A model generated the notes under the pieces. That model was not told the origin of the DNA. It ran no database searches and was given only the letters and a program-made list of their open reading frames with translations. From positions 1 through 64,000 of the forward strand of contig JAKLIY010000014.1 in assembly GCA_022709365.1 (NCBI GenBank): a stretch of DNA of 64,000 bases, read 5' to 3'. Within the stretch, counting starts at the first letter, position 1, and every line of letters starts with the position of its first letter. Shown here piece after piece: positions 15,849 to 54,272 of this stretch. Source of the stretch: Pseudomonadota bacterium. GTDB lineage: Bacteria; Pseudomonadota; Gammaproteobacteria; Competibacterales; Competibacteraceae. The translations under genes were made by a program, and so were the position numbers.

Positions 15849-15887
15849 ATTCATCAGGATCGCCCAACGCCTCACGAGGAAGAACTA

Positions 15888-17450: not shown

Positions 17451-17462
17451 GGAGAAGTAACC

Positions 17463-20624: not shown

Positions 20625-21428
20625 CTAGCCTTCGTCGAGCGGATAGGACGGGCACCCCAACTCCAACGAAACCGCGCGGCCGGCCGCGATGACCAGCGCG
20701 GCATACTCGTCCTGCCGGGCCGGATCGAAGCGAAATGCCGGGAACGAGACGCTCAACGCGGCCACGACACTATTCCAGTGGTCGAAAATAGGCGCCGCCA
20801 TGCAGATCATGTGCTCCTCGAATTCTTCATAATCCAGGCCGTACTTGCGCTCGCGGGTGCGCACGAGTTCCTCCAGGAACTGTGTCGGGGTGGCAATGCT
20901 GTTCTCGCGAAACCGGGTAAAACACATCCCAGCTATGATGGCGTCGCGCCGCTCCGGTCTCTCCCAGGCCAACAGCGCCTTGCCTAGCGCGGTGGCGTGG
21001 ACCGGCGCGCGCCTGCCGATCCGGGAATACATGGCAAGGCTGTACTTCGCGTCGACCTTGTCAATGTAGATGACCTCATGATCGACCAGAACGCCGAGAT
21101 GAACGGCCTCCCCGATTTGGTCAGACAGAATCCGCATCTGATGTCTGGCTAGCTCGGTCAGGTCCAAGTGCTGCATCGCCTGGGTCCCCAGCTCGAACAA
21201 CTTCAGTGTCAGGCTGTAGCGCTCGCTCTCGGACTCCTGGCGGACGAAACCCAGCTCTTTCATCGTCTGCAGGAAGCGGTAAATGGTCGCCTTGGGCATG
21301 GCCAGTCGTACCGAAAGTTCGGAGATGCCGGTTTCCTTCCGCTCACCCAAGGCCGCCAGGAGACCAAAAACCCTGAGCACGGCGGCGACGGGTTCGGGTG
21401 GATTGCGATGATGGCTATCTTCATCCAT
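20625..21428 (-). CDS. IclR-family transcriptional regulator of uronate catabolism
   Basis: A 267-residue IclR protein. The winged-helix N-terminus reads AAVLRVFGLLAALGERKETG then ISELSVRLAMPKATIYRFLQ, and the effector domain contains GEAVHLGVLVDHEVIYIDKV and LGKALLAWE. KdgR, the regulator of 2-keto-3-deoxygluconate metabolism, belongs to this family, and the gene directly follows kduD and kduI on the same strand. I infer it represses the surrounding uronate genes in response to a keto-deoxy sugar acid. The start has AAGGAAGG upstream. A shrunken piece of its HTH-coding region recurs near 12.55 kb. Confidence 0.88.
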   Translation of the reverse strand: MDEDSHHRNPPEPVAAVLRVFGLLAALGERKETGISELSVRLAMPKATIYRFLQTMKELGFVRQESESERYSLTLKLFELGTQAMQHLDLTELARHQMRILSDQIGEAVHLGVLVDHEVIYIDKVDAKYSLAMYSRIGRRAPVHATALGKALLAWERPERRDAIIAGMCFTRFRENSIATPTQFLEELVRTRERKYGLDYEEFEEHMICMAAPIFDHWNSVVAALSVSFPAFRFDPARQDEYAALVIAAGRAVSLELGCPSYPLDEG

Positions 21429-23309: not shown

Positions 23310-23648
23310 ATGAAAGACTGCTTTTACGAGGATGCGCGGTGCCCGTGGATCGACATTGAACCGGGAATCCGCCGGAAGATCGTCGGCCACACACCGAACC
23401 TGCTGGCCGCCGTAGTGCTGTTCGACAAAGGCGCGGTCGGCACCGTACACGGTCATGCCGGGCACGAGCAGATCGCCTATGTACTGGCCGGCGCGTTCGA
23501 AGTGGAGGTGGAAGGCGAAAAGCGCGTCTTGCGGGCGGGTGACGCCTTCATAGCGGATAAAAACGTCAGGCATGGCGTGGTTGCGCTTGAACAGGGCAGC
23601 CGGTTGCTGGACGTCTTCTCCCCCCGGCGGGACGACTTTATCGAATGA
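23310..23648 (+). CDS. kdgF: KdgF-type cupin, unsaturated uronate linearisation
   Basis: A 112-residue single-domain cupin. The metal-binding motif is HGHAGHEQIAYVLAGAFEVE and the second motif is GDAFIADKNVRHG. KdgF proteins speed the opening of 4,5-unsaturated monouronates to the linear keto form that KduI uses, so its place opposite kduI across the shared promoter fits well. The length matches the family. It leads the plus-strand catabolic run, with uxaB beginning 16 nt downstream. Other small cupins share this fold, so the exact activity rests on context. Confidence 0.82.
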   Translation: MKDCFYEDARCPWIDIEPGIRRKIVGHTPNLLAAVVLFDKGAVGTVHGHAGHEQIAYVLAGAFEVEVEGEKRVLRAGDAFIADKNVRHGVVALEQGSRLLDVFSPRRDDFIE

Positions 23649-23664
23649 ATTGAGAGAGGTTGCC

Positions 23665-25161
23665 ATGTTCGCGCTCAACCGTTCCACGCTGCCCGATCCG
23701 CCGAGGCCGACTGACGCTCCACCGAAGACCGGGGTGCTGCAAATCGGCGATGGTAATTTCCTGCGCGCTTTCGCCGACTGGATGATCGATATCGCCAACG
23801 AAGCCGGCGTACTTGACGCTGCCGTGATCCTCGCGCCGCCACGGTCCGCCGGCATCATCGACCCGCTCAATGCCCAGGATGGCCTGTTCACCGTTCTATC
23901 CCGTGGCGTGGTAGCGAGCACGCCCACCACGTCGGTGCGGATCGTGCGCTGCGTGACGCACGGCGTCGATCCGCGCCAGGATCCCGCAGCCCTGTTCGCC
24001 GGCGCACGCGACCCGAAGACGCGCTTCGTGATCTCCAACACCACCGAGGCGGGTATTGTCTATCGCGAACAGCCGCGTTCTCCCGGCGAATGGCCGCGCA
24101 GCTTTCCCGCACAGGTCGCGGCGCTGTTGTTCGAGCGGTTCCAGGCGCTGGGCGGCCAGCCGGAAACTGGACTCGTGTTCCTGCCCTGCGAATTGATCGA
24201 AGCGAACGGCGCCACCCTGCGCGACATCGTGCTGCGGCATGCGCGCGACTGGGCGCTACCCCAGGAGTTCAGCGACTGGGTCACGCGACACAATGATTTT
24301 CTCAACACTCTGGTCGACCGCATCGTGCCGGGTTATCCGGCGACCGAGGCCGATAAGCTGTTCGCCGAATTCGGTTACACCGATGCCCTGCTGGTGGCCG
24401 CCGAACCCTTTCATCTGTGGGTCATCGAGGGGCCGGAGCGCCTCGCCAACGAGTTCCCGCTCCACAAGGCCGGCCTCAACGTGGTGTGGACCGACGACCT
24501 GCAACCCTACCGTGCGAGCAAGGTGCGCATCCTCAACGGCGCGCATACCGCCAGCGCCTTGGCAGCGTTTTGCGGCGGACTGGACACGGTTGGCGAAATG
24601 ATGAACGACAGCGTGACGTCACGTTTCCTCCAACATGTGGTGTTCGATGAGATCGTACCCTTCGTGCCCCTGCCCGAAGCCGAACGTCGGCGCTATGCCG
24701 AGAGCGTACTGGAACGTTTCGCCAATCCCTACATCCGCCACGAACTGCTCTCGATCACGCTCAACTCGGTGTCGAAGTGGAAGGTGCGGGTATTGCCTTC
24801 GCTGCTGGACTATGCTCATACCCATGGCCGGGTGCCGGCTGGACTGGCGTTTTCGCTGGCTGCGCTGTTGTGGTTTTATCGAGGCCGGTTCGACGCGGCG
24901 GGTGAATTCGTCGGCCAGCGTGAAGCTGGGAGCTATCCGATCCGCGACAGCCACGACGTGCTGGACCTCTTCGACGCCGCCTGGCGTGACCCAGCCAACG
25001 TCCGCCCAACCGACGCGGCACCGGCGCTACTCGCCGATGCGCGGCTGTGGGGCATGGATCTTAATGCAGTGCCCGAACTCGCGTCGCGGGTCGCGAACGC
25101 GCTCGACCGGATCGAGGCGGTCGGGATGCTGCCGGCGCTGGCCGAAACGCTCACCCGCTGA
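23665..25161 (+). CDS. uxaB: Tagaturonate reductase (altronate oxidoreductase)
   Basis: A 498-residue member of the polyol-specific long-chain dehydrogenase family. The N-terminal Rossmann part begins GVLQIGDGNFLRAFADWM and continues with VISNTTEAGIVY. The catalytic segment is NSVSKWKVRVLPSLLDY with the expected lysine. UxaB reduces tagaturonate to altronate after UxaC acts on galacturonate. The FLRAFADWM form points to tagaturonate rather than fructuronate reductase. The ATG after GAGAGG is chosen; the open frame extends further upstream through kdgF without conservation. It precedes kdgK by 29 nt. Confidence 0.9.
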   Translation: MFALNRSTLPDPPRPTDAPPKTGVLQIGDGNFLRAFADWMIDIANEAGVLDAAVILAPPRSAGIIDPLNAQDGLFTVLSRGVVASTPTTSVRIVRCVTHGVDPRQDPAALFAGARDPKTRFVISNTTEAGIVYREQPRSPGEWPRSFPAQVAALLFERFQALGGQPETGLVFLPCELIEANGATLRDIVLRHARDWALPQEFSDWVTRHNDFLNTLVDRIVPGYPATEADKLFAEFGYTDALLVAAEPFHLWVIEGPERLANEFPLHKAGLNVVWTDDLQPYRASKVRILNGAHTASALAAFCGGLDTVGEMMNDSVTSRFLQHVVFDEIVPFVPLPEAERRRYAESVLERFANPYIRHELLSITLNSVSKWKVRVLPSLLDYAHTHGRVPAGLAFSLAALLWFYRGRFDAAGEFVGQREAGSYPIRDSHDVLDLFDAAWRDPANVRPTDAAPALLADARLWGMDLNAVPELASRVANALDRIEAVGMLPALAETLTR

Positions 25162-25190
25162 CCCACTGAAAAACCAACCCGGAGGCTGGA

Positions 25191-26159
25191 ATGACCTCAC
25201 TCCGTCGAATCGCGCTGTTTGGCGAATGCATGATCGAGCTGCGCGGCCAGGTTTTCGGCGCGATGCAGCAGGGCTTCGGCGGCGACACCCTGAATACCGC
25301 CATCTATCTGGCCCGGCTGTGCCGCGACCAGGACATCCGGGTTTCCTACGCCACCGCGCTGGGTATCGATGTTTTCAGCGACTACATGATCGCTGCCTGG
25401 CAGGCGGAGGGCATCGATACCTCGCTGGTCCGCCTGCTCAGCAACCACCTGCCTGGCTTGTACGCCATTCAGGTCGATCCCTCTGGAGAGCGCCATTTCT
25501 TTTACTGGCGTGACACCAGCACCGCACGCAGCTATTTCGATGCCCCGAACACCCCTCTGGAGGATGCGGTCAGCGAGCTGTCGGCGTTCTATCTCAGCGG
25601 CATCAGTCTGGCGATCCTGCCACCCGAAGGCCGGGAGCGGCTGCTGGCCACGATGGCGCGGGTGCGCGCCAACGGGGGCATGGTGGCGTTCGACAACAAT
25701 TTCCGTCCCCGCTTGTGGCCAAACCTCAGCGAGGCCCGGACGCTCTATGACCGCGCGTATGCCCTGAGCGACCTGGTGCTCATCACGCTGGACGACGAGA
25801 TGGCGCTGCGGGGCGAAATCGACGCCGACCAGGCGCTGGCTAATGTGCTTGCACTCGAAGTCCCGGAAGTGGTCATCAAGCGCGGCGTTCAGCCCACCCT
25901 CGTCAGAATCGCCGGGACGCCGCCCCTGGCCGTCCCGGTCGAAACCGTCCCCCGCGTCGTCGACACGACGGCGGCGGGAGATTCCTTCGCCGGCGCCTAT
26001 CTGGCCATGCGCTTGACCGGAACGCCCCCCGCGACCGCCGCTCGCGCCGCCAACCGCATGGCGGCGGTGGTCATCCAACATCCCGGCGCCATCATTCCGG
26101 CGGAGGCCATGCCCACCCCAACCGTCCTTCTAACTACCGAAGCCACACCCCCTGTTTAA
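25191..26159 (+). CDS. kdgK: 2-keto-3-deoxygluconate kinase, PfkB family
   Basis: A 322-residue PfkB sugar kinase. The start [15 protein letters not shown] and the substrate loop [16 protein letters not shown] are typical of KDG kinases. The catalytic and anion-hole motif reads [15 protein letters not shown], with the base Asp in GDSF. It phosphorylates 2-keto-3-deoxygluconate to KDPG, the substrate of Eda. It sits between uxaB and uxuA with strong Shine-Dalgarno sequences on both sides (GGAGG; GAGGAGG). A second PfkB kinase of the same pathway is encoded at 37.0 kb. Confidence 0.92.
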
Positions 26160-26185
26160 GCCTGTCCACCCGAGGAGGATACATA

Positions 26186-27235
26186 ATGAAAATGTCATTT
26201 CGATGGTACGGTGATTCCGATCCAGTGTCACTGGATTACATCCGCCAGATTCCCGGAGTAGAGAACATCGTGTCCGCGGTCTACGACGTACCCGTGGGCG
26301 AAGTCTGGCCGGTTGAAAACATCCAGGCGCTCAAGGCCAGGATCGAATCGCACGGCCTGCGCTTTGAGGTGGTCGAGAGCGTGCCGGTACATGAAGACAT
26401 CAAGCTGGGCAAGCCCAGTCGCGACCGCCTGATCGAAAATTACTGCCAAACGCTGCGCAATCTGGCCCCCTGCGGCATCAAGGTGGTCTGCTACAACTTC
26501 ATGCCGGTGTTCGACTGGACCCGCACCACGCTGGAAATGGAGTTGCCGGACGGCTCGAAAACGCTGGGGTTCGACATGGCGACCGTCAACCAGATCGATC
26601 CCTCGGAGGGCATCCAGTTGCCCGGCTGGGATACTAGCTACAAGCCCGACGAACTCAAGGCCCTGCTGGCCGAATACGCCAAAATCGACGAAGAAAAACT
26701 GTGGTCGCATCTCGAATACTTCCTGCACCGGGTGATCCCGGTCGCCAAGGAAGTCGGCATCAAAATGGCGATTCATCCAGACGATCCGCCCCGCCCCATC
26801 TTTGGCCTGCCGCGCATCGTCAAGAACCGGGATGACCTGGCCCGCCTGCTGGCTATCGAGGACACCCCCGCCAACGGCCTGACCTTGTGTTCGGGTTCGC
26901 TGGGAGGCGATTTTTACAACGACATCGCCGCCATGGTGCGCGAGTTCGCTGGCCGGGGCCGCATTCATTTCGCCCACCTGCGCAACGTCAAGGTCAACGA
27001 AGCCGGCGACTTTTACGAAACCGGCCATCGTTCCGAGGATGGTTCGCTCGATATGGCCGAAATCGTGCGGGCCTACTACGAGGCCGGCTACGAGGGCTAT
27101 GTCCGCCCGGACCACGGCCGGATGATCTGGGGTGAAACCGGCAAACCCGGCTACGGCCTCTACGACCGGGCGCTCGGCGCGGTGTACCTGAACGGCCTGT
27201 GGGAAGGCATCGCTAAAGCGGAAAGCCGCCAATAA
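26186..27235 (+). CDS. uxuA: D-mannonate dehydratase
   Basis: A 349-residue TIM-barrel dehydratase turning mannonate into 2-keto-3-deoxygluconate. The N-terminus [20 protein letters not shown] is diagnostic, as are [18 protein letters not shown], the metal-site stretch [13 protein letters not shown] and [13 protein letters not shown] near the end. The size fits the shorter, Bacillus-like form rather than the roughly 394-residue E. coli one. Next in line, 14 nt on, is an SDR gene that likely makes its substrate mannonate. Confidence 0.96.
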
Positions 27236-27249
27236 GCGTGGAGAATCCA

Positions 27250-28104
27250 ATGAAACTGCCATTCAAAATTGACCTGAGCAACAAGGTGGCCGTGGTAACG
27301 GGCGGCAGCGGCGTGTTGTGTTCGGAACTCGCCGCGGCGCTGGCGGCGAACGGCGCCAAGGTCGCGGTGCTGGGTCGCAACGCCGAGGCGGCGGAAAAGA
27401 CTGCGGCTCGACTAAGAGAGTTCGGCACCACTGCCATCGGCATCAGCGCCAATGTACTCGAACGTGGGGAACTGGAAGCTGCCGCCGAACGGGTGGCGAA
27501 GGAACTGGGTCCCTGCGATTTGCTGGTGAACGGTGCCGGCGGCAATAATCCCAAGGGCACCACCAGCAGGGACTGGTTCGAGCCGGCAGATCTCTTCGAT
27601 AAATCGCTGACGACCTTCTTCGATCTCGATCCCAAGGGCGTCGAATTTGTCTTCAACCTGAATTTCCTGGGCACGCTGTTGCCCACCCAGGTCTTCGCCC
27701 AGCAGATGATCGGCCACACTGGCTGTTCGATCATCAATATCTCGTCCATGAGCGCCTTTTGCCCGCTGACCCGGATCCCGGCTTACAGCGGCGCCAAGGC
27801 GGCGGTCAACAATTTCACCCAGTGGCTGGCCGTCCATTTCTCGAAAGTGGGCATCCGGGTCAACGCCATCGCGCCCGGCTTTTTCCTGACCGCGCAGAAC
27901 CATAAGTTGCTCATCGACGAAGCCACGGGCGAGTTCACGGCGCGCGCCAAAAAAATCGTCGAGTACACGCCGATGGGCCGCTTCGGCGAATCTCACGAAC
28001 TGGTCGGCGCGTTGCTCTGGCTGGCTTGCGAAGAAGGCTCGGGTTTTGTCAACGGCGTGGTCGTGCCGATTGATGGCGGGTTCTCCGCCTACTCGGGCGT
28101 CTGA
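27250..28104 (+). CDS. SDR-type D-mannonate oxidoreductase (fructuronate reductase)
   Basis: A 284-residue short-chain dehydrogenase with VAVVTGGSGVLCSELAAAL, VNGAGGNNPKGT and the catalytic IPAYSGAKAAVNNF. This larger SDR group, often next to uxuA, reduces fructuronate to mannonate in place of the MDR-type UxuB. Tight coupling with uxuA here supports that role. The ATG preceded by GTGGAG is chosen; a GTG four codons earlier overlaps that ribosome site. It ends the first enzyme run, and the TRAP transporter begins 56 nt later. Confidence 0.85.
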   Translation: MKLPFKIDLSNKVAVVTGGSGVLCSELAAALAANGAKVAVLGRNAEAAEKTAARLREFGTTAIGISANVLERGELEAAAERVAKELGPCDLLVNGAGGNNPKGTTSRDWFEPADLFDKSLTTFFDLDPKGVEFVFNLNFLGTLLPTQVFAQQMIGHTGCSIINISSMSAFCPLTRIPAYSGAKAAVNNFTQWLAVHFSKVGIRVNAIAPGFFLTAQNHKLLIDEATGEFTARAKKIVEYTPMGRFGESHELVGALLWLACEEGSGFVNGVVVPIDGGFSAYSGV

Positions 28105-28160
28105 TCCATCGAGAATTCTTTTTTTACCCCCGACATAACTAATCCAAAGGAGAATCCATC

Positions 28161-29144
28161 ATGCTTCGTCCGTTATTGTCCAAACTTTGTGTGTGTGCAT
28201 GGGCAGCGGGTCTGATCGCTGCCCCGGTCATTGCCCAAAGCGCCACAGCCTTCAAGGCCGCCGATGTCCATCCGAAAGGCTATCCGAACGTCGTGGCCGT
28301 CGAGAATATGGGCAAGAAGCTCGATGCTGCCACGAACGGCCGCCTGAAGATCCAGATGTTCCCCGGCGGCGTGCTCGGCGACGAGAAGGTGATGATCGAG
28401 CAGACCCAGATCGGCGCGATCCAGATGCTGCGGGTTTCCCTGGGCGGGATCAGTCCGGTCGTTCCCGAAGCCAACGCCTTTAGCCTGCCCTATCTGTTCC
28501 GCAACCAGGAACACATGCGCAAGGTGATCGACGGTCCGATCGGTCAGGAACTGCTCGACAAGATCACCGCCAGCCCCGGCAAGCTGGTCGGGCTGGCCTG
28601 GATGGATAGCGGTTCGCGCAATGTCTACACCAAAAAGCCGATCAAGACCCCGGCCGACCTGAAGGGCCTGAAGATCCGCATGCAAGGTAACCCAATGTTC
28701 ATCGACACCATGAACGCCATGGGCGGCAACGCCATTGCCATGGGCTTCGGCGAACTCTACAGCGCCTTGCAGACCGGCGTGGTGGACGGCGCCGAAAACA
28801 ATGAACCCAGCTATTTCACCCAGAATCACTTCACGGTGGCCAACGTTTACTCTCTCACCGGCCACCTCAGCATTCCCGAGATCCTCGTGTTCTCCAAGCC
28901 CGCGTGGGACAAGCTCGCCAAAGAAGATCAGGAACTGATCAAGAAGCTCGCCCGTGAGGCGCAGATGGAACAGCGCACCCTCTGGGATCAGAGCGTCGCG
29001 GACGCGACCACCAAGCTCAAAGCCGCCAACGTGACCTTTGTGGAAGTCGATAAAAAACCTTTCATCGAGGCCACCGCTCCGGTTCGCGAGAAGTACGGCG
29101 CGCCCTTCGCTGACCTAGTCAAGCGTGTCCAGGCCGTCGAGTAA
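28161..29144 (+). CDS. dctP: TRAP transporter substrate-binding protein
   Basis: A 327-residue DctP-family periplasmic protein. A signal peptide is clear (MLRPLLSKLCVCAWAAGLIA, cleavage near VIAQS). The family segment KGLKIRMQGNPMFIDTMNAM carries the arginine that pairs with the substrate carboxylate, and GFGELYSALQTGVVDGAENN follows. In this setting the likely ligands are hexuronates such as glucuronate or galacturonate, as known for related DctP proteins. It begins the DctPQM unit. A strong site, AAAGGAG, precedes the ATG. Confidence 0.93.
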   Translation: MLRPLLSKLCVCAWAAGLIAAPVIAQSATAFKAADVHPKGYPNVVAVENMGKKLDAATNGRLKIQMFPGGVLGDEKVMIEQTQIGAIQMLRVSLGGISPVVPEANAFSLPYLFRNQEHMRKVIDGPIGQELLDKITASPGKLVGLAWMDSGSRNVYTKKPIKTPADLKGLKIRMQGNPMFIDTMNAMGGNAIAMGFGELYSALQTGVVDGAENNEPSYFTQNHFTVANVYSLTGHLSIPEILVFSKPAWDKLAKEDQELIKKLAREAQMEQRTLWDQSVADATTKLKAANVTFVEVDKKPFIEATAPVREKYGAPFADLVKRVQAVE

Positions 29145-29167
29145 CAGCGTTTAAAAGTTGTTCACTC

Positions 29168-29250
29168 CCCTCTCCCGCCAGCGGGAGAGGGATAAGGGTT
29201 ACAGTCTCAAAGGCTACACCCTAACCCTTTCCCCTGCGCCAAGGAGAGAG
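29168..29250. repeat. Palindromic GC-rich repeat between dctP and dctQ
   Basis: A perfect palindrome with 11-bp arms (CCCTCTCCCGC, spacer CA, complement) occupies 29168-29191. A second, partly complementary half follows (AACCCTTTCCCCTGCGCC...GAGAGGGG), so the whole 115-bp gap can fold back. It belongs to the dispersed repeat group seen throughout the window and may tune the relative expression of dctP over dctQM. Confidence 0.7.
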
Positions 29251-29258
29251 GGGACTGA

Positions 29259-29837
29259 ATGATGACTTCTGGATCTGCTCAAAAGGATTCCAAAATGGTC
29301 GAGAAATTTATACGGTTTTTAGACTCTGTCTATCTCGCGTGCATCTGGATTTCGGGCGCGGCCCTGTTCACGATGACGATTGTCATTCCCTGGGGCGTTC
29401 TCAATCGCTACGTTTTCGGCGCCGGTTCGGACTGGCCGGAACCGATGGCGATTCTATGCATGGTCTTGTTCACGTTCATCGGCGCCGCGGCCAGTTACCG
29501 CGCCGGCGCACACATCGCGGTGACGATGTTCACCGATCGCGTTCCAGCCTCCTGGCGTACCCCGCTGATGTGGATTGTCGATATCTTGATGGCGCTGCTG
29601 GCCCTGTTCATCATGATCTGGGGCGCCCAGTTGTGCATCGGAACCTGGCACCAGTCGGTCGCCGAGTTCCCCGTGTTGAGCGTGGGCTTCACCTATCTGC
29701 CGCTGCCGATCGGCAGCGCACTCACCCTGCTGTTCATCATCGAACGGATGATCGCCGGCCCGCAGACCGGTCGGGCCGTGGTCCAGTTCGATCATGATCA
29801 AACGAATGTCGCCGCCGATTTGAAGGGGGAAATCTGA
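29259..29837 (+). CDS. dctQ: TRAP transporter small permease
   Basis: A 192-residue four-helix DctQ subunit. Hydrophobic stretches include WISGAALFTMTIVIPWGVLN, then the conserved FGAGSDWPEPMAILCMVLFT and AASYRAGAHIAVTMF. It bridges DctP and DctM in the inner membrane. The first ATG follows GAGAGGGG contributed by the palindromic repeat. A second ATG 12 codons in follows AAGGATTCC and is an equally plausible start. It overlaps dctM by one base (TGATG), indicating translational coupling. Confidence 0.9.
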   Translation: MMTSGSAQKDSKMVEKFIRFLDSVYLACIWISGAALFTMTIVIPWGVLNRYVFGAGSDWPEPMAILCMVLFTFIGAAASYRAGAHIAVTMFTDRVPASWRTPLMWIVDILMALLALFIMIWGAQLCIGTWHQSVAEFPVLSVGFTYLPLPIGSALTLLFIIERMIAGPQTGRAVVQFDHDQTNVAADLKGEI

Positions 29838-31120
29838 TGGACGCCTTGGTCTTGCTGGGTAGTTTGTTCGTGCTGGTAGCGATCGGCGTTCCGGTCGCCT
29901 ACGCCCTCGGTCTGTCCGCAATCGTCGGCGCGATCTGGGTCGATCTGCCGCTCGACGCGGTGATGATCCAGATCGCGAGCGGCGTCAACAAGTTCTCGCT
30001 GCTCGCCATTCCGTTCTTCGTGCTTGCCGGCGCGATCATGGCGGAAGGCGGCATGGCGCACCGGCTGGTCTCGTTCGCGGCGGTGCTGGTGGGATTCATT
30101 CGCGGTGGCCTGTCGCTGGTCAACATCATGGCCTCGACCTTCTTCGGCGCCATTTCCGGTTCCTCGGTGGCCGATACCGCATCGATCGGCAGCGTGCTGA
30201 TCCCGGAAATGGAGAAAAAAGGCTACCCGCGTGCGTTCGCCACAGCGGTGACGGTCAGCGGTTCGGTGCAGGCGATCCTGATTCCGCCGAGCCACAACGC
30301 CGTGATCTATTCGCTCGCCGCCGGCGGCTCGGTGTCGATCGCCAGCCTGTTCCTCGCCGGGGTCGTGCCCGGTCTGCTGCTCGGGTTCACCGTAGCGATG
30401 CTCTGTCTCTACATAGCCCACAAGAAAAATTACCCGAAGGGTGAAAAGATCCCGTTCCAGCAGGCGCTCAAGATCGCCGTCGATGCCCTGTGGGGCCTGA
30501 TGACCATGGTGATCATTCTCGGCGGCATCCTGTCCGGTGTCTTCACCGCCACCGAATCGGCGGCGATCGCCTGCGTCTGGGCCTTCTTCGTCACCATGTT
30601 CATCTATCGCGACTACAAGTGGAGCGATCTGCCGAAGTTGGTTCACCGGACCGTGAAGACGGTCACGATCGTCATGATCCTGATCGGTTTCGCCGCCAGC
30701 TTCGGCTACATCATGACGATCATGCAATTACCGGATCAGGTCACAACCTTCTTCACGACGATCTCGGACAACAAGTACGTGATTCTGTTCTCCATCAACA
30801 TCATGCTGCTGCTGCTCGGCACCTTGATGGACATGGCGCCACTGATCCTGATCCTGACGCCGATCCTGCTGCCGGTGGTTAAAGACCTCGGCGTGGACCC
30901 GGTGCATTTCGGCATGATCATGATGGTGAATCTGGGAATGGGTCTGATCACTCCGCCCGTCGGTTCGGTGCTGTTCGTCGGCAGCGCCGTTGCCAAATTG
31001 CCGATTGAAACGGTGGTTAAGGCGCTCTATCCGTTTTTCGTCGCCCTGTTCCTGGTACTTATGCTGGTCACCTATGTCCCGGGCTTGTCACTCTGGTTAC
31101 CGCGCGCCTTCGGACTCTGA
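29837..31120 (+). CDS. dctM: TRAP transporter large permease
   Basis: A 427-residue DctM subunit, normal for the family, made almost entirely of membrane helices. Family segments are GVPVAYALGLSAIVG, the NIMASTFFGAISGSSVADTA loop, IPPSHNAVIYSLAAGGS and the late MVNLGMGLITPPVGSVLFVG. It carries the sodium-driven transport channel. Its start overlaps the dctQ stop. The MFS carrier gene begins 73 nt downstream, giving two possible uptake systems in one cluster. Confidence 0.94.
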   Translation: MDALVLLGSLFVLVAIGVPVAYALGLSAIVGAIWVDLPLDAVMIQIASGVNKFSLLAIPFFVLAGAIMAEGGMAHRLVSFAAVLVGFIRGGLSLVNIMASTFFGAISGSSVADTASIGSVLIPEMEKKGYPRAFATAVTVSGSVQAILIPPSHNAVIYSLAAGGSVSIASLFLAGVVPGLLLGFTVAMLCLYIAHKKNYPKGEKIPFQQALKIAVDALWGLMTMVIILGGILSGVFTATESAAIACVWAFFVTMFIYRDYKWSDLPKLVHRTVKTVTIVMILIGFAASFGYIMTIMQLPDQVTTFFTTISDNKYVILFSINIMLLLLGTLMDMAPLILILTPILLPVVKDLGVDPVHFGMIMMVNLGMGLITPPVGSVLFVGSAVAKLPIETVVKALYPFFVALFLVLMLVTYVPGLSLWLPRAFGL

Positions 31121-31193
31121 CGTGCGCCACCGAATGATTCGAACGCATTGAACCTACCCACAACAATATTCAAAACATTTTGAGGATCGCAGC

Positions 31194-32927
31194 GTGAAAC
31201 TCAAAGGCATACGCTGGTACATGGTGGCCCTGCTGATGGGTGCCAACATCGTCAATTATCTGGACCGCAACTGTTTGTCGGTGGCGGCCCCCACCTTCAT
31301 GAAAGATCTCGACATCAGCAAGATCGAGTACTCCTACATCGTCAGCGGCTTTTTAGTCGCCTACATGATCAGTCAACCCGTCATGGGCCGGTTCATGGAC
31401 TGGATCGGCACGCGCATCGGCTTCATGTTCTCGGTGGGTTGGTGGTCCATCGCCAACATGCTGCACGCCTTGGCCGGAAGCTGGGTCTCCTTCAGCTTCT
31501 TCCGCTTCCTGCTCGGCATCGGTGAAGGGGGCATGTTCCCAGGGGCGATCAAGACCATATCCGAGTGGTTTCCGGCCAAGGAACGCACCGTCGCCACCGG
31601 CTTCATGAACATGGGATCTTCCGTGGGCGGGATGATCGCGCCGCCCCTGATCGCGTTCATCATCCTGACGTGGCACTGGCAAGCGGCGTTCGTCATCACG
31701 GGCGCGGTGGGCGTCGTCTGGGTCGCGTTATGGTTCCTGTTCTACCAGCCGCTGGACAAACACAAACATGTCACCCAGGAGGAAGCCGATCACATTCGGG
31801 CCGGACAGGCCGACCAGCGCGCGGCTGAGCAGGTGACTGCCCAGGACAGCAGCGTGTGGGGGATGGTGCTGCGCCAGCGCAATTTCTGGGGCATGGGTAT
31901 AGCCCGGTTCCTCTCCGAACCCGCCTGGCAGTTCTTCGTCTTTTGGATTCCCGTCACCCTCATGGACACACGCGGCCTGGACCTCAAGGGCATCGCCATT
32001 TTCGCGTGGATGCCGTTCCTGGCCAGCGACCTGGGTTGCATCTTCGGCGGCTACCTGTCGCCCTTCTTCATACGTCTGGGCATGCCCGTGCTCACCGCGC
32101 GCAAGGCGGCGGCCACCGTATGTGGCATCCTCATGATGACCGCTATCTTCATCGGTACGGATCCGCCCGCCTGGATGGCGCAGATGTTGGCCAAGCCGCA
32201 GGCGACGGTAACCAGCATTGACGCATCCCGCACCTTGGTGGGAATGCACCTTAAGGATGGAGGCATGATTGATATGGCGGTAGCCCGCCCCGGCGCGACC
32301 GCGACCGCGACCGAGCGGCTGACTCTGTCGCAGGATCAGTTGGTGGCCAAAATGCAGGAGCTGGCCAAGGACAACGTGGGCAAGGTAGAGGTGGGGTTAC
32401 CGTCTGGCGATAGCACGCGGAATTTACGCAAGCTGCTGGATGATAAATCCCTCGCCGATGCCAAACTCCATATCACCGTGGTGCCGGCTAAGTTCCTGCC
32501 GCACGTGGCGAGCGCCGACTCTCAGGCCCAGGGCAACGCGGTCATGCTGGTCGATGGCCTGCGTCAGGATGCGCTGGGTTCCATGGTCATGCTCTCGGCC
32601 GGATGGGCGGTTTTGTTCTTCTGCATCGCGGCTTTCACGCATCAGGCGATGTCGAGCACCCTGCTCACGCTGCCGGCTGATCTGTTCCCTCACCGCGCCG
32701 TGGCTACGGCCTACGGACTCGGCGGAACCATTGGCTACATCGGTGGCTGGCTGTTTACCCTGATGGTGGGCTGGCTGGCCACGAATGTTGGGTATGCGCC
32801 GATCTTTGTCACCATTGCCTTCCTGGATTTGATCGCGGCGGGAGTCCTCTGGGTCTTTTTGCGTGCGCCACAAGAGATGGCGGCTGAAGCAAGCGGGATG
32901 GGCGCGCCGGTCCTGCGGGGCCACTAA
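31194..32927 (+). CDS. MFS transporter of the hexuronate/anion:cation group with an inserted domain
   Basis: A 577-residue major facilitator. The N-terminal half is typical of ExuT/GudP-like carriers: [39 protein letters not shown] and [20 protein letters not shown]. ExuT-type proteins have about 430-450 residues. The excess lies at about residues 327-456, between helices of the C-terminal half, and is hydrophilic (a [19 protein letters not shown] stretch and a later TVVPAKFL part) with no family I recognise. The start is GTG. The gene sits between the TRAP transporter and uxaC, so a uronate or aldonate substrate is likely. Confidence 0.82.
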
Positions 32928-33007
32928 ACAGGAACGCCATCAGCAACCTGAAACTTTCCCGCTGCCGGAGTACTCGGCGGCGGGATTCCACTGAACTGGA
33001 GGGCAAC

Positions 33008-34420
33008 ATGGCCAAGCCGTTTATGGACGAGGATTTCCTCCTCGAAACCCCGACTGCACTCACGCTGTACCACGAGTACGCTGCGCCGCAACCGATTCTC
33101 GATTACCACTGCCATCTCCCACCGGCGGAAATCGCTGGAAACAAGCAATTCCGCAACATCACCGAGATCTGGCTCGGCGGTGACCATTACAAGTGGCGCT
33201 TCATGCGCTCCGCCGGGGTGCCCGAGGAGTTCATTACTGGCAATCAGCCAGACCAGGAAAAATTCCGCCGTTTCTGTGAAGTGCTGCCGCTGGCCGTCGG
33301 CAATCCGCTTTACCACTGGTGCCATCTCGAACTGCGTCGCTTTTTTGGCCTTGACACCCTGGTCAGCGCCGAAACCGCCGATTCGCTGTGGGACGCCTGC
33401 AACGCCAAGCTCGGCACACCCGAGTTCTCTACCCGCAGCCTGATGGTGCGCGCGAAGGTGCGCGCGGTCTGCACGACCGACGATCCCATCGACGATCTGG
33501 CGAATCACCAAGCCATCGCCGCCGACAGCAGCTTCACGGTCAAGGTACTGCCCACTTTCCGCCCCGACCGGTCCTTCAACATCGACCGCGCCGAATTCGC
33601 GGATTACATCGGCAAACTGGGCGACGTGAGCGGCGTCAGGATCAACCGCTTCGCTGATGTGTTGCGGGCGCTCGATGCGCGTATGGACCACTTCGCCCGG
33701 CACGGCTGCCGTCTCTCGGATCACGGCGTGGACGTGACCTTTTTTGCCGAGGCGACCGAAGCGGAACTTGATGCCATCCTGGCGCGGCGGCTGAGCGGCG
33801 AGACGCTGACTCCGAAGGAAGTCGAGCAGTACAAGACTGCCGTGCTGCTGCATCTCGGTCGCGAGTACGCGAAACGCGACTGGGCCATGCAACTGCACAT
33901 GGGCGCGCTGCGCAACAACAATACCCGGATGTTCAAACAGCTCGGCCCCGATACCGGATGGGATTCCATCACTGACAGTCTGGTGGCGAGCAATCTTTCA
34001 CGCTATCTCGACGCGCTCGACCGCGATGGCTTGTTGCCCCGCACCATTCTCTATTGCCTCAACCCGGCCCAAAACGAAGTGCTGGGCACCATGATCGGCA
34101 ATTTCCAGGATGGCCGCGTGTTCGGCAAGATGCAGTTCGGTTCCGGCTGGTGGTTCAACGACCAGAAGGACGGCATGATCCGCCAGATGACCGCCCTGGC
34201 GTGCCTGGGCAATCTGGGCGCGTTCGTCGGCATGCTCACCGATTCGCGCAGCTTCCTGTCCTATACCCGCCACGAATACTTCCGCCGGATTCTGTGCAAC
34301 CTGATCGGCGGTTGGGTCGAGAACGGCGAATACCCGCAAGACTGGGCGCAACTGAAGCGGGTGGTGGAAGGCATTTGCTACGGTAACGCCAGCCGCTACT
34401 TCGGCCTCGGCACTGACTAG
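33008..34420 (+). CDS. uxaC: Uronate isomerase
   Basis: A 470-residue amidohydrolase-fold isomerase, identical in length to E. coli UxaC. The metal-site start is [16 protein letters not shown], followed by FKNLTEIWL-like [25 protein letters not shown]-like [11 protein letters not shown] and [14 protein letters not shown]. It interconverts glucuronate/fructuronate and galacturonate/tagaturonate, the entry step of both branches found here. The ATG follows CTGGAGGG. It is preceded by the MFS gene and followed by a repeat-rich 190-bp gap before uxaA. Confidence 0.96.
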
Positions 34421-34434
34421 GAAGCTGTATAGAT

Positions 34435-34518
34435 GTAGGGCGGGTTAGCGGAGCGTAACCCGCCTTTAACGGGGATTCGGCCCATGGCGGGTTACGGCTC
34501 ACGCCTAACCCGCCCTAC
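34435..34518. repeat. Palindromic repeat after uxaC
   Basis: GTAGGGCGGGTTAG at 34435-34448 is exactly complementary to 34505-34518; the inside also pairs in part (GTAACCCGCC with GGCGGGTTAC), so the element folds into a long hairpin. It could end the uxaC transcript or limit read-through into uxaA. Confidence 0.75.
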
Positions 34519-34561
34519 GATGGGTCTTTGCAAAAACCAACCTATTGATTATGCGAGATAG

Positions 34562-34586
34562 GTAGGGTACGCAATGCGTACCCTAC
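34562..34586. repeat. Perfect 12-bp palindrome upstream of uxaA
   Basis: GTAGGGTACGCA and its complement flank a single A. It lies about 15 nt before the uxaA ribosome site. Another copy type of the dispersed palindromes; a terminator-like role is possible but there is no U tract. Confidence 0.65.
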
Positions 34587-34615
34587 TGCTCTGATCCTTT
34601 GAGGAGGAAATGGAT

Positions 34616-36199
34616 ATGCATCTCTATGAAGAGCAATCCCTGGAAAATGCGCCCGTGGACCCATCAGGGATGCCTATCTCTCCCGTTATCCGGCTCCATC
34701 CCCACGATGATGTGGTGATCGCGCGCCGCCAGTTGGTCGGCGGCACACGCATTCCCGAGGAAAATCTGGTGGTGGCGGGTTTGATCCCGCCGGGTCACAA
34801 GGTAGCGACCCGGCGCATCGCCTCGGGTCAGCCGGTACACCGATATAACCAGATCATCGGCGTCGCCACCCAGGATATTGAAGCCGGCCAGCATGTGCAT
34901 ACCCACAACCTGGCAATGGCTGAATTCACGCGCGATTACGCCTTCTGCGCCGACGTGAAACCCACTGACCCGGTTTCCGCGCCGGCGACGTTCATGGGCA
35001 TCGCGCGGTCCGACGGGCGCGTAGCCACGCGCAACTACATCGGCATTCTGAGCAGCGTCAACTGTTCCGCCACGGTGGTGCGCGCCATCGCCGACTATTT
35101 CCGGCGCGATATTCATCCGGAGGCACTGGCCGCTTATCCCAACGTGGACGGCGTGGTCGCGCTGAGCCACAGCGGCGGCTGCGGCATCGATCCGCAGGGT
35201 CCGGGGTTGGCGCTGTTGCGCCGCACGCTGGCCGGCTACGCCCGCCATCCCAACTTCGCCGCCGTGCTCTTCGTCGGCCTGGGCTGCGAGACCAATCAGA
35301 TCGGCGGCATTTTCCAGGCGCATGGTCTCAAGGAAAACGAACGTCTGCGGGCGTTCACCATTCAGGATACCGGCGGCACGGCGAAAACGGTGGCGCGCGG
35401 CATCGAAGCCGTCCACCAACTGCTGCCCGAGACTAATACCGTAACGCGCCAGCCGGTATCGGCCAGCCATCTGACCGTCGGTCTTCAGTGCGGCGGCTCG
35501 GACGGTTATTCCGGCATCACCGCCAATCCAGCGCTGGGCGCGGCGGTGGACCTGCTGGTGCGGCATGGCGGCACGGCGATTCTGTCGGAAACGCCGGAAA
35601 TCTACGGGGCCGAACATCTGTTGACCCGCCGCGCCGTCTCACGCGAAATCGGGGAAAAGCTGATTCAGCGCTTGGACTGGTGGGAAGAATACTGCGCGCG
35701 CAACCACGCCGAACTGAACAACAATCCTTCCGCCGGCAACAAGGCGGGCGGGTTGACCACGATTCTGGAAAAGTCGCTCGGCGCGGTCGCCAAGGCCGGC
35801 ACCACCAATCTGGTCGAAGTCTACGAATACGCCGAACCGGTCACCGCCAAGGGCTTTGTGTTCATGGACACGCCGGGCTATGACCCGATGTCCGCTACCG
35901 GCCAGGTGGCGGGAGGAGCCAATCTGATCTGCTTCACCACCGGCCGCGGTTCCGCCTACGGCTGTCAGCCGTCTCCCTCGCTGAAGCTGGCGACCAACAC
36001 CGCGCTCTGGCAGCGTCAGGAAGAGGACATGGACCTCAACTGCGGCGAGATTCTCGACGGGACGGCCACGATTCAGGACGTCGGCGCCCGTTGCTTCCAG
36101 ATGATGCTCGACTGCGCGTCGGGCCAGCCATCAAAGAGCGAGTTGCACGGCTATGGACAGAACGAATTTGTCCCCTGGCCGATTTCGGTCGTGACCTGA
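34616..36199 (+). CDS. uxaA: Altronate dehydratase
   Basis: About 527 residues. The N-terminal SAF-like domain (VIRLHPHDDVVIARRQLV...) is followed by the UxaA catalytic region: GRVATRNYIGILSSVNCSAT, ALSHSGGCGID, LGCETNQIGG, and GLQCGGSDGYSGITANPALG. Cysteines in these motifs suit the Fe-dependent dehydratase. It removes water from altronate to give 2-keto-3-deoxygluconate. The second ATG is chosen because GAGGAGG sits 8 nt before it, whereas the first ATG is only 2 nt away. It is somewhat longer than the E. coli enzyme. Confidence 0.94.
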   Translation: MHLYEEQSLENAPVDPSGMPISPVIRLHPHDDVVIARRQLVGGTRIPEENLVVAGLIPPGHKVATRRIASGQPVHRYNQIIGVATQDIEAGQHVHTHNLAMAEFTRDYAFCADVKPTDPVSAPATFMGIARSDGRVATRNYIGILSSVNCSATVVRAIADYFRRDIHPEALAAYPNVDGVVALSHSGGCGIDPQGPGLALLRRTLAGYARHPNFAAVLFVGLGCETNQIGGIFQAHGLKENERLRAFTIQDTGGTAKTVARGIEAVHQLLPETNTVTRQPVSASHLTVGLQCGGSDGYSGITANPALGAAVDLLVRHGGTAILSETPEIYGAEHLLTRRAVSREIGEKLIQRLDWWEEYCARNHAELNNNPSAGNKAGGLTTILEKSLGAVAKAGTTNLVEVYEYAEPVTAKGFVFMDTPGYDPMSATGQVAGGANLICFTTGRGSAYGCQPSPSLKLATNTALWQRQEEDMDLNCGEILDGTATIQDVGARCFQMMLDCASGQPSKSELHGYGQNEFVPWPISVVT

Positions 36200-36248
36200 C
36201 CAGGCGCATTCATCATCGACGAAAGCTGATTTTGTCGTTAACCGTTCA

Positions 36249-36303
36249 CACCCCCTCCCCCCAACCCCCTCCCACGAGGGGAGGGGGTTGGGGGGAGGGG
36301 GTG
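36249..36303. repeat. Long perfect palindrome before eda (25-bp arms)
   Basis: The arms at 36249-36273 and 36279-36303 are exact complements built of C runs and G runs around a 5-nt loop. It is the strongest hairpin in the window, 40 nt upstream of the eda start. The G-run strand could also form a quadruplex. It would be expected to stall or end transcription from uxaA or to shield the eda message. Confidence 0.85.
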
Positions 36304-36343
36304 AATGCTTATATTTTGTCTTTACCAAAAAGAGAGAAACTCC

Positions 36344-36970
36344 ATGAACGTACTGGACGTCATGCGCACTGGCCCGGTCATCCCGGTCATCGTCATCGAA
36401 GAACTGGCGCAAGCAGTTCCCTTGGCCAAGGCGCTGGTCGCCGGCGGGGTGCGGGTGCTGGAAGTGACCTTGCGCACCGCCCCGGCGCTGGAAGCGATCC
36501 GCCTGATCGCCCGCGAAGTGCCGGACGCCATCGTCGGGGTGGGCACCCTCACCCGTCCCCAGGATTTCAAAGATGCTCTGGATGCCGGCGCCAAGTTCGG
36601 TGTCAGCCCCGGCCTGACTCCGGCGATGATTCAAGCCGCTCACGAAACGGGGTTGCCCCTGCTGCCCGGCGTGATGACGCCATCCGACGTGATCGCCGCC
36701 CGGCTGGCCGGATTTAGCGAATTGAAGCTGTTCCCCGCCCAGCAGGCGGGCGGCATCGGCATGTTGAAGGCGCTGGGCGGGCCGTTCCCGGATGTGACCT
36801 TCTGCCCGACCGGCGGGGTTTCGGTGGAAAACGCCCCGGATTTTCTGGCGCTGCCCAACGTCGCCTGCGTCGGCGGTTCCTGGCTCGCGCCCAAGGCCGC
36901 GCTGGTCGCTGGCGACTGGGACAGGATTACCGCGTTGGCGAAAGAAGCGAGCGCCTTGAAGGCGCGTTGA
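36344..36970 (+). CDS. eda: 2-keto-3-deoxy-6-phosphogluconate aldolase
   Basis: A 208-residue class I aldolase cleaving KDPG to pyruvate and glyceraldehyde-3-phosphate. GGVRVLEVTLRT carries the catalytic glutamate, VGVGTLTRPQDFKDALDAGA follows, and ELKLFPAQQAGG carries the Schiff-base lysine. The ATG after AGAGAGAAA is chosen over an upstream one that adds 13 residues. It is the common last step for both uronate branches and, with glucose oxidation genes elsewhere, could serve the Entner-Doudoroff route. Confidence 0.95.
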   Translation: MNVLDVMRTGPVIPVIVIEELAQAVPLAKALVAGGVRVLEVTLRTAPALEAIRLIAREVPDAIVGVGTLTRPQDFKDALDAGAKFGVSPGLTPAMIQAAHETGLPLLPGVMTPSDVIAARLAGFSELKLFPAQQAGGIGMLKALGGPFPDVTFCPTGGVSVENAPDFLALPNVACVGGSWLAPKAALVAGDWDRITALAKEASALKAR

Positions 36971-36974
36971 TCGC

Positions 36975-37010
36975 CCCCACCCCAACCCTCCCCCGCGAGG
37001 GGGGAGGGAG
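36975..37010. repeat. Palindromic repeat between eda and the second kinase
   Basis: CCCTCCCCC and GGGGGAGGG form a stem around a GCGAG-like loop, with extra C-rich flank at the left. Same repeat group as those before eda and after the kinase. Confidence 0.65.
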
Positions 37011-37025
37011 CCTGAGGAAAAGAAA

Positions 37026-38126
37026 ATGGCTGAATTGATGATCAAATCTGCGGCGGAAGCGAAGTGGGACTGCGTATCCTTCGGCGAAGTGATGCTGCGT
37101 TTTGATCCCGGCTTTGGCCGGGTGCGCAATGCCCGTTCCTTCCAAGTCTGGGAAGGCGGCGGCGAGTACAACGTCGCCCGAGCCATGCGCAAGTGCTGGG
37201 GCAAGCGTGCCGCTGTGGTCACGGCCCTGCCCAAAAATGACCTAGGCTGGCTGGTGGAAGATTTCATCATGCAGGGCGGCGTGGATATGTCCCATGTCAT
37301 CTGGCGCGATTTCGACGGTCTGGGCCGCAATACCCGCGTCGGCCTGAACTTCACCGAGAAGGGCTTCGGCATTCGCCCGGCGCTGGGATGCTCCGACCGG
37401 GGTCACTCCGCCGCGTCGCAAATTCGCCCGGGGGAAGTGAACTGGGAAAAACTCTTTGGTGAGGAAGGCGTGCGCTGGTTCCAGACCGGCGGCATTTTCG
37501 CCGCGTTGGCGTCCAACACCGCCGAAGCCGTGCTTGAAGCGGTGCAAGTCGCCAAGAAGTACGACACGGTCGTCGCTTATGACCTGAACTTCCGCGCTTC
37601 CCTGTGGAAGAGCCAGGGCGGCAAGGACGGCGCACAGCGGATCAATCGGGAAATCGCCAAATATGTCGATGTAATGATCGGCAATGAGGAAGACTTCACC
37701 GCCTGTCTGGGCTTCGAAGTGGAAGGCGCTGACGAGCATCTGACCCAGATCCAGACCGAATCCTTCGCCAATATGATTAAGACAGCGGTCAAGGAATTCC
37801 CGAACTTCAAGGTCGCCGCCACCACTCTGCGCAACGCCAAGACTGCGACGATCAATGACTGGTCCGCCATCGTCTGGTACGACGGCCAGATTTATGAATC
37901 GATGAAGCGCGACAACCTGGAAATCTACGACCGGGTTGGCGGCGGCGACGGTTTCGCCTCCGGCCTGGCTTATGGCTTCCTGGAAGGCAAGGGTCCACAA
38001 GCGGCTGTTGAATACGGCGCGGCCCACGGTGCGTTGGCCATGTCCACGCCGGGCGATACCTCCATGGTGCGCGTGGAAGAAGTCGAAGCGGCGATGAAGG
38101 GCAAAGGCGCTCGCGTCATCCGCTGA
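37026..38126 (+). CDS. PfkB-family sugar kinase, second putative KDG kinase
   Basis: A 366-residue PfkB kinase starting with WDCVSFGEVMLRFDPGFG and the substrate loop VWEGGGEYNVARAMRK. The catalytic end is YDRVGGGDGFASGLAYGFL, with the base Asp in GGDGF. It is longer than the kinase at 25.2 kb and the two are clearly different subfamilies. Its place just after eda suggests 2-keto-3-deoxygluconate or a related keto-deoxy acid as substrate. The residues around QTESFANMIKTAVKEFPN form a cap-like part seen in this longer group. Specificity is inferred from location. Confidence 0.82.
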   Translation: MAELMIKSAAEAKWDCVSFGEVMLRFDPGFGRVRNARSFQVWEGGGEYNVARAMRKCWGKRAAVVTALPKNDLGWLVEDFIMQGGVDMSHVIWRDFDGLGRNTRVGLNFTEKGFGIRPALGCSDRGHSAASQIRPGEVNWEKLFGEEGVRWFQTGGIFAALASNTAEAVLEAVQVAKKYDTVVAYDLNFRASLWKSQGGKDGAQRINREIAKYVDVMIGNEEDFTACLGFEVEGADEHLTQIQTESFANMIKTAVKEFPNFKVAATTLRNAKTATINDWSAIVWYDGQIYESMKRDNLEIYDRVGGGDGFASGLAYGFLEGKGPQAAVEYGAAHGALAMSTPGDTSMVRVEEVEAAMKGKGARVIR

Positions 38127-38136
38127 AGGTAACGCT

Positions 38137-38176
38137 CTCACCCCCAACCCTTCTCCGCTGGGCGAGGGGGGGGTTT
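38137..38176. repeat. C/G-run palindromic repeat after the second kinase
   Basis: A degenerate fold-back (ACCCCCAACCCTTCTCCGC opposite GGGCGAGGGGGGGGTT) of the dispersed family. It could weaken transcription into the following TTG-started gene. Confidence 0.5.
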
Positions 38177-38213
38177 TGTACAGCCTCAGCGAATGAACCC
38201 ATAAGGACGCCCC

Positions 38214-39077
38214 TTGAACGCTTCAACTCCGAATCCAGTCTTTGCCATCGCGCCAGGAGCGGGCGATCTGCCCAAGCTGACGCTCACCGCCCCCGACGGC
38301 GCACGGGCAGAAATCTACCTCCACGGTGCGCAGGTGACCTCCTGGGTTCCTGCCGACGGTCAGGAACGGCTGTTTCTGAGCCAGGCTTCCCAGTTCTGTC
38401 CAGGCGTGCCCATTCGCGGCGGCATCCCTGTTGTATTCCCGCAATTCGGCATGTCCGGGCCGTTGCCCCTGCATGGGCTAGCGCGTCTGATGCCATGGGA
38501 ATTCGCCGGCACGGAAGTCGTGAACGGGCAGGCGTCCGCGACCTTCCGCCTGCGCGATACCGAGGACAGCCAGCGGCTGTGGGCCTTCGCCTTTTTGGCG
38601 GAACTGACGGTCTCCATTGGCGGGAACCAGTTAGCGGTCACGCTCACCATCACCAACACGGGTCCTGAGCCGTTCACCTTCACTGCGGCGCTCCATACCT
38701 ATCTCGCGGTGGCTGACCTCGCCGCGACCCGCGTTGAGGGACTGACCGGCCTGCTTTATCGCGATGCCGCCGCTGGCTGGACTGACCATCAACAGGTTGT
38801 CCCGTGCATCGACTTTACCAGCGAGGTCAACCGGATCTACTTCGATGCCCCGGCTGAAACGCGCCTGATCGAACCCGGCCAGACGACCCGCATTCAGACT
38901 GCCGGCTTTCGAGATGCGGTGGTGTGGAATCCGGCGGCGGACAAATGCGCCACTATGTCTGACCTGAAACCGGACGACTATCAGCGATTTGTCTGTGTTG
39001 AGGCGGTCACGGTCGGTACGCCCGTCAACCTGGCACCCGGTGAACGCTGGCAGGGTACGCAGCGGTTAGTCGCTTGA
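38214..39077 (+). CDS. yeaD: Aldose-1-epimerase/hexose-6-phosphate mutarotase family protein
   Basis: A 287-residue galactose-mutarotase-fold protein of the YeaD group. Recognisable segments are IYLHGAQVTSWVPADGQERL, PIRGGIPVVFPQFG, HGLARLMPWEF and ALHTYLAVADL with the catalytic histidine, followed by VVWNPAADKCATMSDLKPDD. Such proteins interconvert anomers of phosphorylated hexoses. It is started by TTG behind AAGGACG. It lies at the end of the uronate island and may handle anomers of incoming sugars; a direct uronate role is not shown. Confidence 0.87.
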   Translation: MNASTPNPVFAIAPGAGDLPKLTLTAPDGARAEIYLHGAQVTSWVPADGQERLFLSQASQFCPGVPIRGGIPVVFPQFGMSGPLPLHGLARLMPWEFAGTEVVNGQASATFRLRDTEDSQRLWAFAFLAELTVSIGGNQLAVTLTITNTGPEPFTFTAALHTYLAVADLAATRVEGLTGLLYRDAAAGWTDHQQVVPCIDFTSEVNRIYFDAPAETRLIEPGQTTRIQTAGFRDAVVWNPAADKCATMSDLKPDDYQRFVCVEAVTVGTPVNLAPGERWQGTQRLVA

Positions 39078-54100: not shown

Positions 54101-54272
54101 TGCGCCGAGATTCTTCCAGCTTGCCCTGCGCGGCCAAACCCGCCGGTGGAATGTTGGTGCGCTTGGCGTCAAAGCGGTAATCAGCAATCAACTCCGGGGC
54201 TGGCGCGGGATCTTCAGCTTTTTTCCTGCCGCGTGCGGCCATGAATTCTCCCTGTTCAGTTTTTATGCCCAC
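51153..54272 (-). CDS. mod: Type III-like DNA methyltransferase Mod
   Basis: A 1039-residue adenine methyltransferase. DPPY is at residue 207, with motif I DPTCGSGTT at residue 489; this order is the beta class used by type III enzymes. The target-recognition part lies between them. The C-terminal 450 residues are an extra domain of unknown role, making the protein longer than classical Mod (about 650). A repeat-derived stretch (PPAPLPPTGEGS) occurs near residue 815. It overlaps the upstream Uma2 gene by 10 nt and the downstream res gene by 11 nt, so all three are translationally coupled. Confidence 0.92.
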   Translation of the reverse strand: MGIKTEQGEFMAARGRKKAEDPAPAPELIADYRFDAKRTNIPPAGLAAQGKLEESRRIRYAYDPHRPPVLRFDNSGAADQWPELLTTAQQRALTREEIALLAEALRQQQPWLEWAGKREKRGFEVEPVALHMHERIAAQAIVKVAARQDVQRDLFADPKLSYREAVQFYQHDIDWANRMILGDSLQVMASLARRENLAGRVQMIYVDPPYGIKFASNFQPEVGKRDVKDKESDLTREPEMVKAYRDTWTLGVHSYLAYLRDRLIVAKELLADSGSIFVQISDENLHRVRMVMDEVFGAENFCAVIPFVTTSSQTSILLSRTNDYLLWFARDRQRVKFRQLFSGKEIGGEGASKYTSVECASGERGPASVFADGKRFRPSPMVSQSGGENSAFDVDFEGVVCVPRSGYWKTNQSGIARLIGARRIVQEGRSIAFVRYLEDFPVYPLSSFWEDTWGVQSRSDPKRYVVQTSSQVIERCLLMTTDPGDLVLDPTCGSGTTAYVAEQWGRRWITIDTSRVALALARQRLLTAKFDYFALRELNDDDRRRNPKGQWLKTASGGIATLDCETVPHVTLKSIAQNSALDAIFARHQPGLDAALVALNAEVGKVGKDLRQKLATKLAAKQKTEGKRAITEADRRRWLLPPANRDPKIKLTVDAAFPGWYEWEAPFDTDPDWPQDLQTALTAYRTAWRAKMDEVNAAIAANADNEELVDKPRIRKNVVRVSGPFTMEAVMPSELTLDEPSPMAGADEDLDGFAAESVADAPQNTEAFLDKMIRLLAADGVRFPNNKVAVFSRLSPMGEEFLHAEGEWELPSPPAPLPPTGEGSKASVAVSIGPEFGPVTAWQVENALFYAARRGFDNLVFAGFSFDAAAQATIQDDPNPRVRCHLAHIRPDVNMGNLLKDTPNAQLFSVFGSPRVALNPADDSLFTVTLEGVDIYNPVENTILATKVDKVAAWFVDTDYDGRVFCITQAFFPDKSAWEKLAKALKSVVDESAFEALSGTESLPFAAGKHQRVAVKVIDPRGNEVMRVLRLEGQATYGA
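51804..51829. repeat. Palindromic repeat inside mod
   Basis: CCCCTCTCC and GGAGAGGGG flank an 8-nt loop. The element with its flank is read in frame near residue 815 of Mod and inserts a Pro/Ala/Gly-rich stretch between otherwise ordinary sequence. Confidence 0.8.

Follow-up and report, generated by a model that had tools for sequence, protein, structure and literature searches.

The question raised by this locus is why a sugar acid carrier of a familiar kind contains a large soluble block between two helices of its second half, and how such a carrier came to stand in its operon. The locus lies in a stretch of 64,000 nucleotides from a Competibacteraceae genome (contig JAKLIY010000014.1), which is called the window here. 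The carrier gene (31194-32927, + strand) is a single open reading frame with a GTG start that encodes an MFS protein of 577 residues; its assignment is based on the reading frame, profile matches, a homologue tree and conserved positions. As the best explanation we tentatively favor an ExuT-type proton-coupled hexuronate carrier that was added to a TRAP-type uronate operon and that possesses a private periplasmic α/β domain between transmembrane helices TM9 and TM10.

The carrier matches the Pfam family MFS_1 (PF07690; E 5.1e-55, 187.2 bits against a curated cut-off of 33.4). Its best NCBIfam model is TIGR00893 (E 5.9e-83), aligned in two stretches that are split by the insert; since the score of 279 bits is below the cut-off of 395, the carrier was not assigned to this family. 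In the homologue tree (FastTree, midpoint root), the carrier and E. coli ExuT (locus L055) belong to one clade of 72 members with support 1.0, in which the carrier forms a long, deep branch with no close sister. It otherwise looks like an ordinary ExuT-type MFS protein, sharing with the ExuT-type hexuronate carriers the MFS core as well as the uxaC and uxaA neighbors. A sequence-only reading of this DNA had called it a uronate-type MFS carrier, and the MFS_1 match, the best NCBIfam model and the clade with E. coli ExuT all agree with that call.

The closest solved structure is that of DgoT from the SLC17/ACS family (6e9n; E 5.2e-44), and the cores of the two proteins align. The DgoT residues D46, R47, Y79 and E133 correspond in this alignment to D24, R25, Y57 and E111 of the carrier, all of which are present. 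Among 137 homologues, the same residue is found at these positions in 97 (D24), 136 (R25), 109 (Y57) and 131 (E111) proteins. According to two studies of DgoT, proton-coupled flux requires D46 and E133, whereas the carboxylate of the substrate is paired with R47 (PMC6532931, PMC10149257). The residues matching D46, R47 and E133 suggest that the carrier is proton-coupled as well. Judged by its conserved positions, the core is intact: the carrier keeps 46 of the 47 positions at which at least 90% of the 137 homologues share one residue, and 43 of 44 when the same test is applied to an alignment of 158 rows.

The alignment with DgoT stops at residue 320 of the carrier (DgoT 345) and restarts at residue 477 (DgoT 359), so that the aligned blocks are separated by 156 residues in the carrier versus 13 in DgoT. 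Hydropathy and this alignment place TM9 at about residues 300-321 and TM10 at about 463-485, with the insert between them. Carrier residues 313 and 474 enclose 160 residues, whereas E. coli ExuT has 17 at this place and the homologues usually have 14-18; therefore, the extra length amounts to ~143 residues, at ~323-465 (32160-32588, + strand). This is close to the soluble block of ~130 residues (327-456) that the earlier reading had located in the second half of the protein. In the MFS fold both ends of the chain are cytoplasmic, and the loop between TM9 and TM10 is periplasmic. Given this established topology of MFS carriers and DgoT, the insert is probably exposed on the periplasmic side, at the outer face of the inner membrane; an earlier suggestion of a periplasmic or cytosolic sensing part is thus narrowed, through family topology, to its periplasmic half. 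The short loop preceding TM9 has the basic residues R294, R303 and K304, and the insert itself is near neutral (15 K+R and 16 D+E over residues 322-462).

At the DNA level, the insert is real coding sequence, in frame with the rest of the gene and with host-like codon usage. It comprises 140 codons without a stop, a stretch that remained likewise open in 49 of 5000 base shuffles. By a codon score derived from 16 genes of the window, the insert reaches 0.41 per codon, the part of the carrier gene before it 0.50 and the part after it 0.38; the other two forward frames of the insert have clearly negative coding scores and contain 5 and 7 stops. GC and GC3 of the insert match those of the C-terminal part of the carrier gene. 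The genome of the window yielded no further copy of the insert DNA, comparison with plasmids, phages and the genus returned only short chance pieces, and the search of the flanks for direct repeats or footprints of mobile elements yielded only short, mostly imperfect repeats. Long open frames also run antisense to the carrier (32424-32924, - strand) and to other genes, which the GC content here would lead one to expect; none of these frames was taken as a gene.

The distribution of the insert was surveyed in homologues from named plasmids and contigs and from whole genomes, which covered the order, the class and the phylum as well as a second class with three of its orders. The counted homologues are up to 30 loci per search from among the matches listed, plus 8 extra stretches, and residues were counted in a MAFFT alignment over the columns between carrier residues 313 and 474. 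The final alignment has 158 rows, from which a truncated homologue (L129) and the window's own gene (L215) were dropped before counting. Among the matches listed, the 156 complete homologues have 17 residues between TM9 and TM10 in 122 cases, 18 in 31, 14 in two and 33 in one; smaller earlier sets of homologues gave the same result. Thus, none of these 156 proteins carries the insert, which is unique within the sample, and the rarity of such a block, anticipated from the sequence, is borne out at this scale. The sole other lengthening, to 33 residues, is found in an ExuT-like protein (L201, G1457:C13). In the plasmid collection, none of the 1107 records with a match spans 80% of the carrier query. 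Literature searches, aimed only partly at this point, listed no carrier of the ExuT type that bears an insert like this one. With a single known example, a function of the insert draws no support from conservation.

Searches with the insert alone agree with this picture. Against 398 genomes of the phylum nothing rose above chance (best non-self E 0.0035), and the same was true for plasmids (best E 0.5). Pfam, NCBIfam and PHROGs gave no family up to E 10, in line with the earlier remark that the block belongs to no recognizable family. Pattern scans, which detect close relatives only, returned three relatives in genomes and none in viruses. A BCCT match in Roseobacter (E 0.5) was set aside as chance level. 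The N-terminal domain of GspF was also rejected as a candidate; it appeared in weak matches of the phylum scan, with single-genome E values from 0.0035 to ~0.03. A profile built from six GspF-type matches gave the insert 19.7 bits, a score reached by none of 3765 scored shuffles; this test is circular, because the six proteins had been chosen from the 398 genomes for their likeness to the insert, and the likeness is not claimed.

Structure prediction of the insert, proposed earlier as a check, gave a low-confidence βββαβα(β) order. The AlphaFold models were made from a single sequence with no alignment. Mean pLDDT is 45.6 for the full-length model, in which the insert ranks with the better-scored regions, and 52.6 for the low-confidence model of the insert alone (pTM 0.45). 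Both models predict the order β-β-β-α-β-α at similar positions (347-417); a final strand at 426-431 appears only in the full-length model, extending the predicted layout over residues 348-431. A Foldseek search of the PDB with the insert gave the IS621 recombinase as the best match (E 9e-4), followed by Tex. PDB matches to DsbG and N-acetylmannosamine-6-phosphate epimerase (E 0.4-1.2) were discarded as chance level. In VIA-align, where by the tool's own note a Z below 8 may reflect merely a common arrangement, the insert model scored best against the pantothenate kinase CAB1 (Z 8.6), with many ribonuclease H-like folds at Z ~6-7 and TolR (5by4) at Z 7.2 over 81 residues (3.3 Å). The full-length model reached a Z of 7.4 at best and matched TolR 5by4 at Z 6.5 over 82 residues (3.0 Å). 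Neither VIA-align comparison produced a match clear of the background; what emerges from the low-confidence models is a series of many middling ribonuclease H-like matches (Z up to 8.6).

In the published description of the TolR structure, the periplasmic domain has the order β2 β3 β4 α2 β5 α3 β6 and is called ribonuclease H-like, and its DALI neighbors include pantothenate kinase 2f9t as well as Tex 3bzk (PMC4646322). Both of these neighbors are also among the fold matches of the insert. The fold neighborhood of the insert model is therefore coherent, yet with scores in the common-background range the predicted fold may serve as a lead only. The sequence comparisons gave a different result. 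Against our own TolR/ExbD HMMs, built from the ORFs of 26 of 30 loci, scored shuffles equalled or exceeded the insert in 323 of 4738 and 699 of 4482 cases, so that by sequence TolR/ExbD was rejected as no better than shuffles; hhalign gave no match of the insert to TolR/ExbD, and neither did the Pfam TolR/ExbD models up to E 10.

The genomic context points to hexuronates as the probable substrate of the carrier, in agreement with its placement in the ExuT clade, and the neighbors on both sides are annotated as genes of uronate breakdown. The order begins with a KdgR-like regulator (20625-21428, - strand; NF011671, 305 bits, above the cut-off), KduD and KduI, followed on the + strand by a reductase of the mannitol dehydrogenase family (uxaB/uxuB-like; 23572-25161; profile search), a KdgK-like sugar kinase (25191-26159; below the equivalog cut-off), and the mannonate dehydratase UxuA (26186-27235; profile search), and then by an SDR enzyme. 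The TRAP system, encoded on the + strand, comprises the solute-binding protein DctP (28161-29144; Pfam DctP, E 3.7e-78), the small membrane subunit DctQ (29259-29837; assigned by its position between dctP and dctM and by the same order in relatives) and the large membrane subunit DctM (29837-31120; Pfam DctM, E 4.7e-118), which is the upstream neighbor of the carrier. Downstream of the carrier, the + strand encodes the uronate isomerase UxaC (33008-34420; Pfam UxaC, E 5.6e-205), a UxaA-like protein of the altronate/galactarate dehydratase family (34610-36199; SAF plus GD_AH domains), and the KDPG/KHG aldolase Eda (36305-36970; profile search); a kinase of the PfkB type and an aldose epimerase come next. 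Elsewhere in the window, two long adjacent genes resemble a type III restriction-modification pair (47993-54272, - strand): the gene at 51153-54272 has an N6_N4_Mtase domain, and its neighbor at 47993-51163 a ResIII domain. The genes for E1, E2 and E3 of a pyruvate dehydrogenase complex are found at 13191-19241 (+ strand), and the E3 has an N-terminal lipoyl domain.

This UxaC is found in 6 of 40 genomes of the order, counting that of the window; the copies in the five relatives are closely related, and one of them is 92% identical to the UxaC of the window. In all five, dctM is followed directly by uxaC with the carrier gene absent and the surrounding order the same. The dctM-uxaC stretch (31121-33007) is 1887 bases long in the window versus 93 in G021, 90 in G002 (same genus), 83 in G1116 and 19 in G1119; in G1120, whose DctM piece shows just 44% identity and is truncated at the end of the contig, it measures 136 bases. 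Comparison of the loci of these relatives (L223, L224, L225, L226 and L227) with positions 23572-39077 of the window shows the carrier gene between dctM and uxaC in the window genome only, and in L224 (G002) the SDR gene of the operon had no match, though its neighbors matched. No close carrier homologue was found elsewhere among the 40 genomes of the order; besides the window's own genome, only G012 and G1116 have homologues, with identities of 24-36% (E up to 1e-20). Gain of the carrier gene in the genome of the window is the simplest reading of these comparisons, with repeated loss as the alternative. Since an intact carrier of the ExuT clade stands in a uronate operon from which it is absent in relatives, the gene was probably added to the operon.

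Absence of the gene from relatives, together with a genome in 141 contigs, might also be produced by faulty assembly or binning. We consider such an artefact scarcely credible, given that the insert is in frame at both ends within one long gene, that the contig runs on into a uxaC 92% identical to a relative's, and that the insert DNA has no second copy in the genome. It is very improbable, too, that the insertion broke the carrier and that the gene is now decaying. A large insertion in a single copy, in an operon that relatives manage without the gene, would fit such a history, but stops and frameshifts are absent, codon bias is uniform, and nearly all of the conserved positions are kept.

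A serious rival, and one that we regard as quite possible, is that the insert is a tolerated passenger. In this case a short periplasmic loop that is permissive to additions would have gained the stretch, which may or may not be structured and which would affect neither transport nor regulation. Its occurrence in a single protein fits this explanation, as does a precedent from the mycobacterial MFS protein Rv1410/MHAS2168 (8pnl). According to PMC10576003, this protein also has a periplasmic element between TM9 and TM10, although there it is a small β-hairpin in a lipid transporter of another MFS family, and the hairpin can be removed with lipid transport kept. Additions at TM9-TM10 can thus be dispensable, and for this reason the passenger explanation stays strong; against it, the frame, codon usage and secondary-structure order of the insert resemble those of a maintained domain. 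In another rival explanation, the predicted βββαβαβ layout of the insert is that of a TolR/ExbD-like domain that might bind peptidoglycan or dimerize the carrier. The predicted strand and helix order, the middling fold score and the shared structural neighbors would suit this assignment, but such a Z may be mere common arrangement and the sequence comparisons lend no support. Moreover, the TolR/ExbD domain is C-terminal after one TM helix, whereas the insert is a loop between two TM helices, and we hold the assignment to be rather improbable.

Under the favored explanation, in which the periplasmic domain is private to this ExuT-type carrier, the protein would import hexuronate into the cell by proton symport. 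The insert might fold independently and sit above the periplasmic mouth of the C-terminal half, where it could modulate substrate access or link carriers or envelope partners, taking no part in the transport path itself. A role in substrate capture, gating or assembly and docking is our guess, and the sensing function proposed earlier is likewise conjectural. That a single-chain secondary carrier has gained a periplasmic domain of its own for capture, gating or docking, in an operon otherwise relying on a TRAP system whose binding protein is separate, seems unlikely; if true, it would represent a hybrid of two symporter types, one working independently of a binding protein and one assisted by it. 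How important the insert is depends on relatives carrying it or on experiments. The carrier is of a known kind and, through its insert, a new variant. The locus offers a clean before/after pair, with the operon with and without the gene and carriers with and without the loop. The examined MFS uptake carriers of this family have very short TM9-TM10 loops, and a folded domain at this place would show that the loop accepts one.
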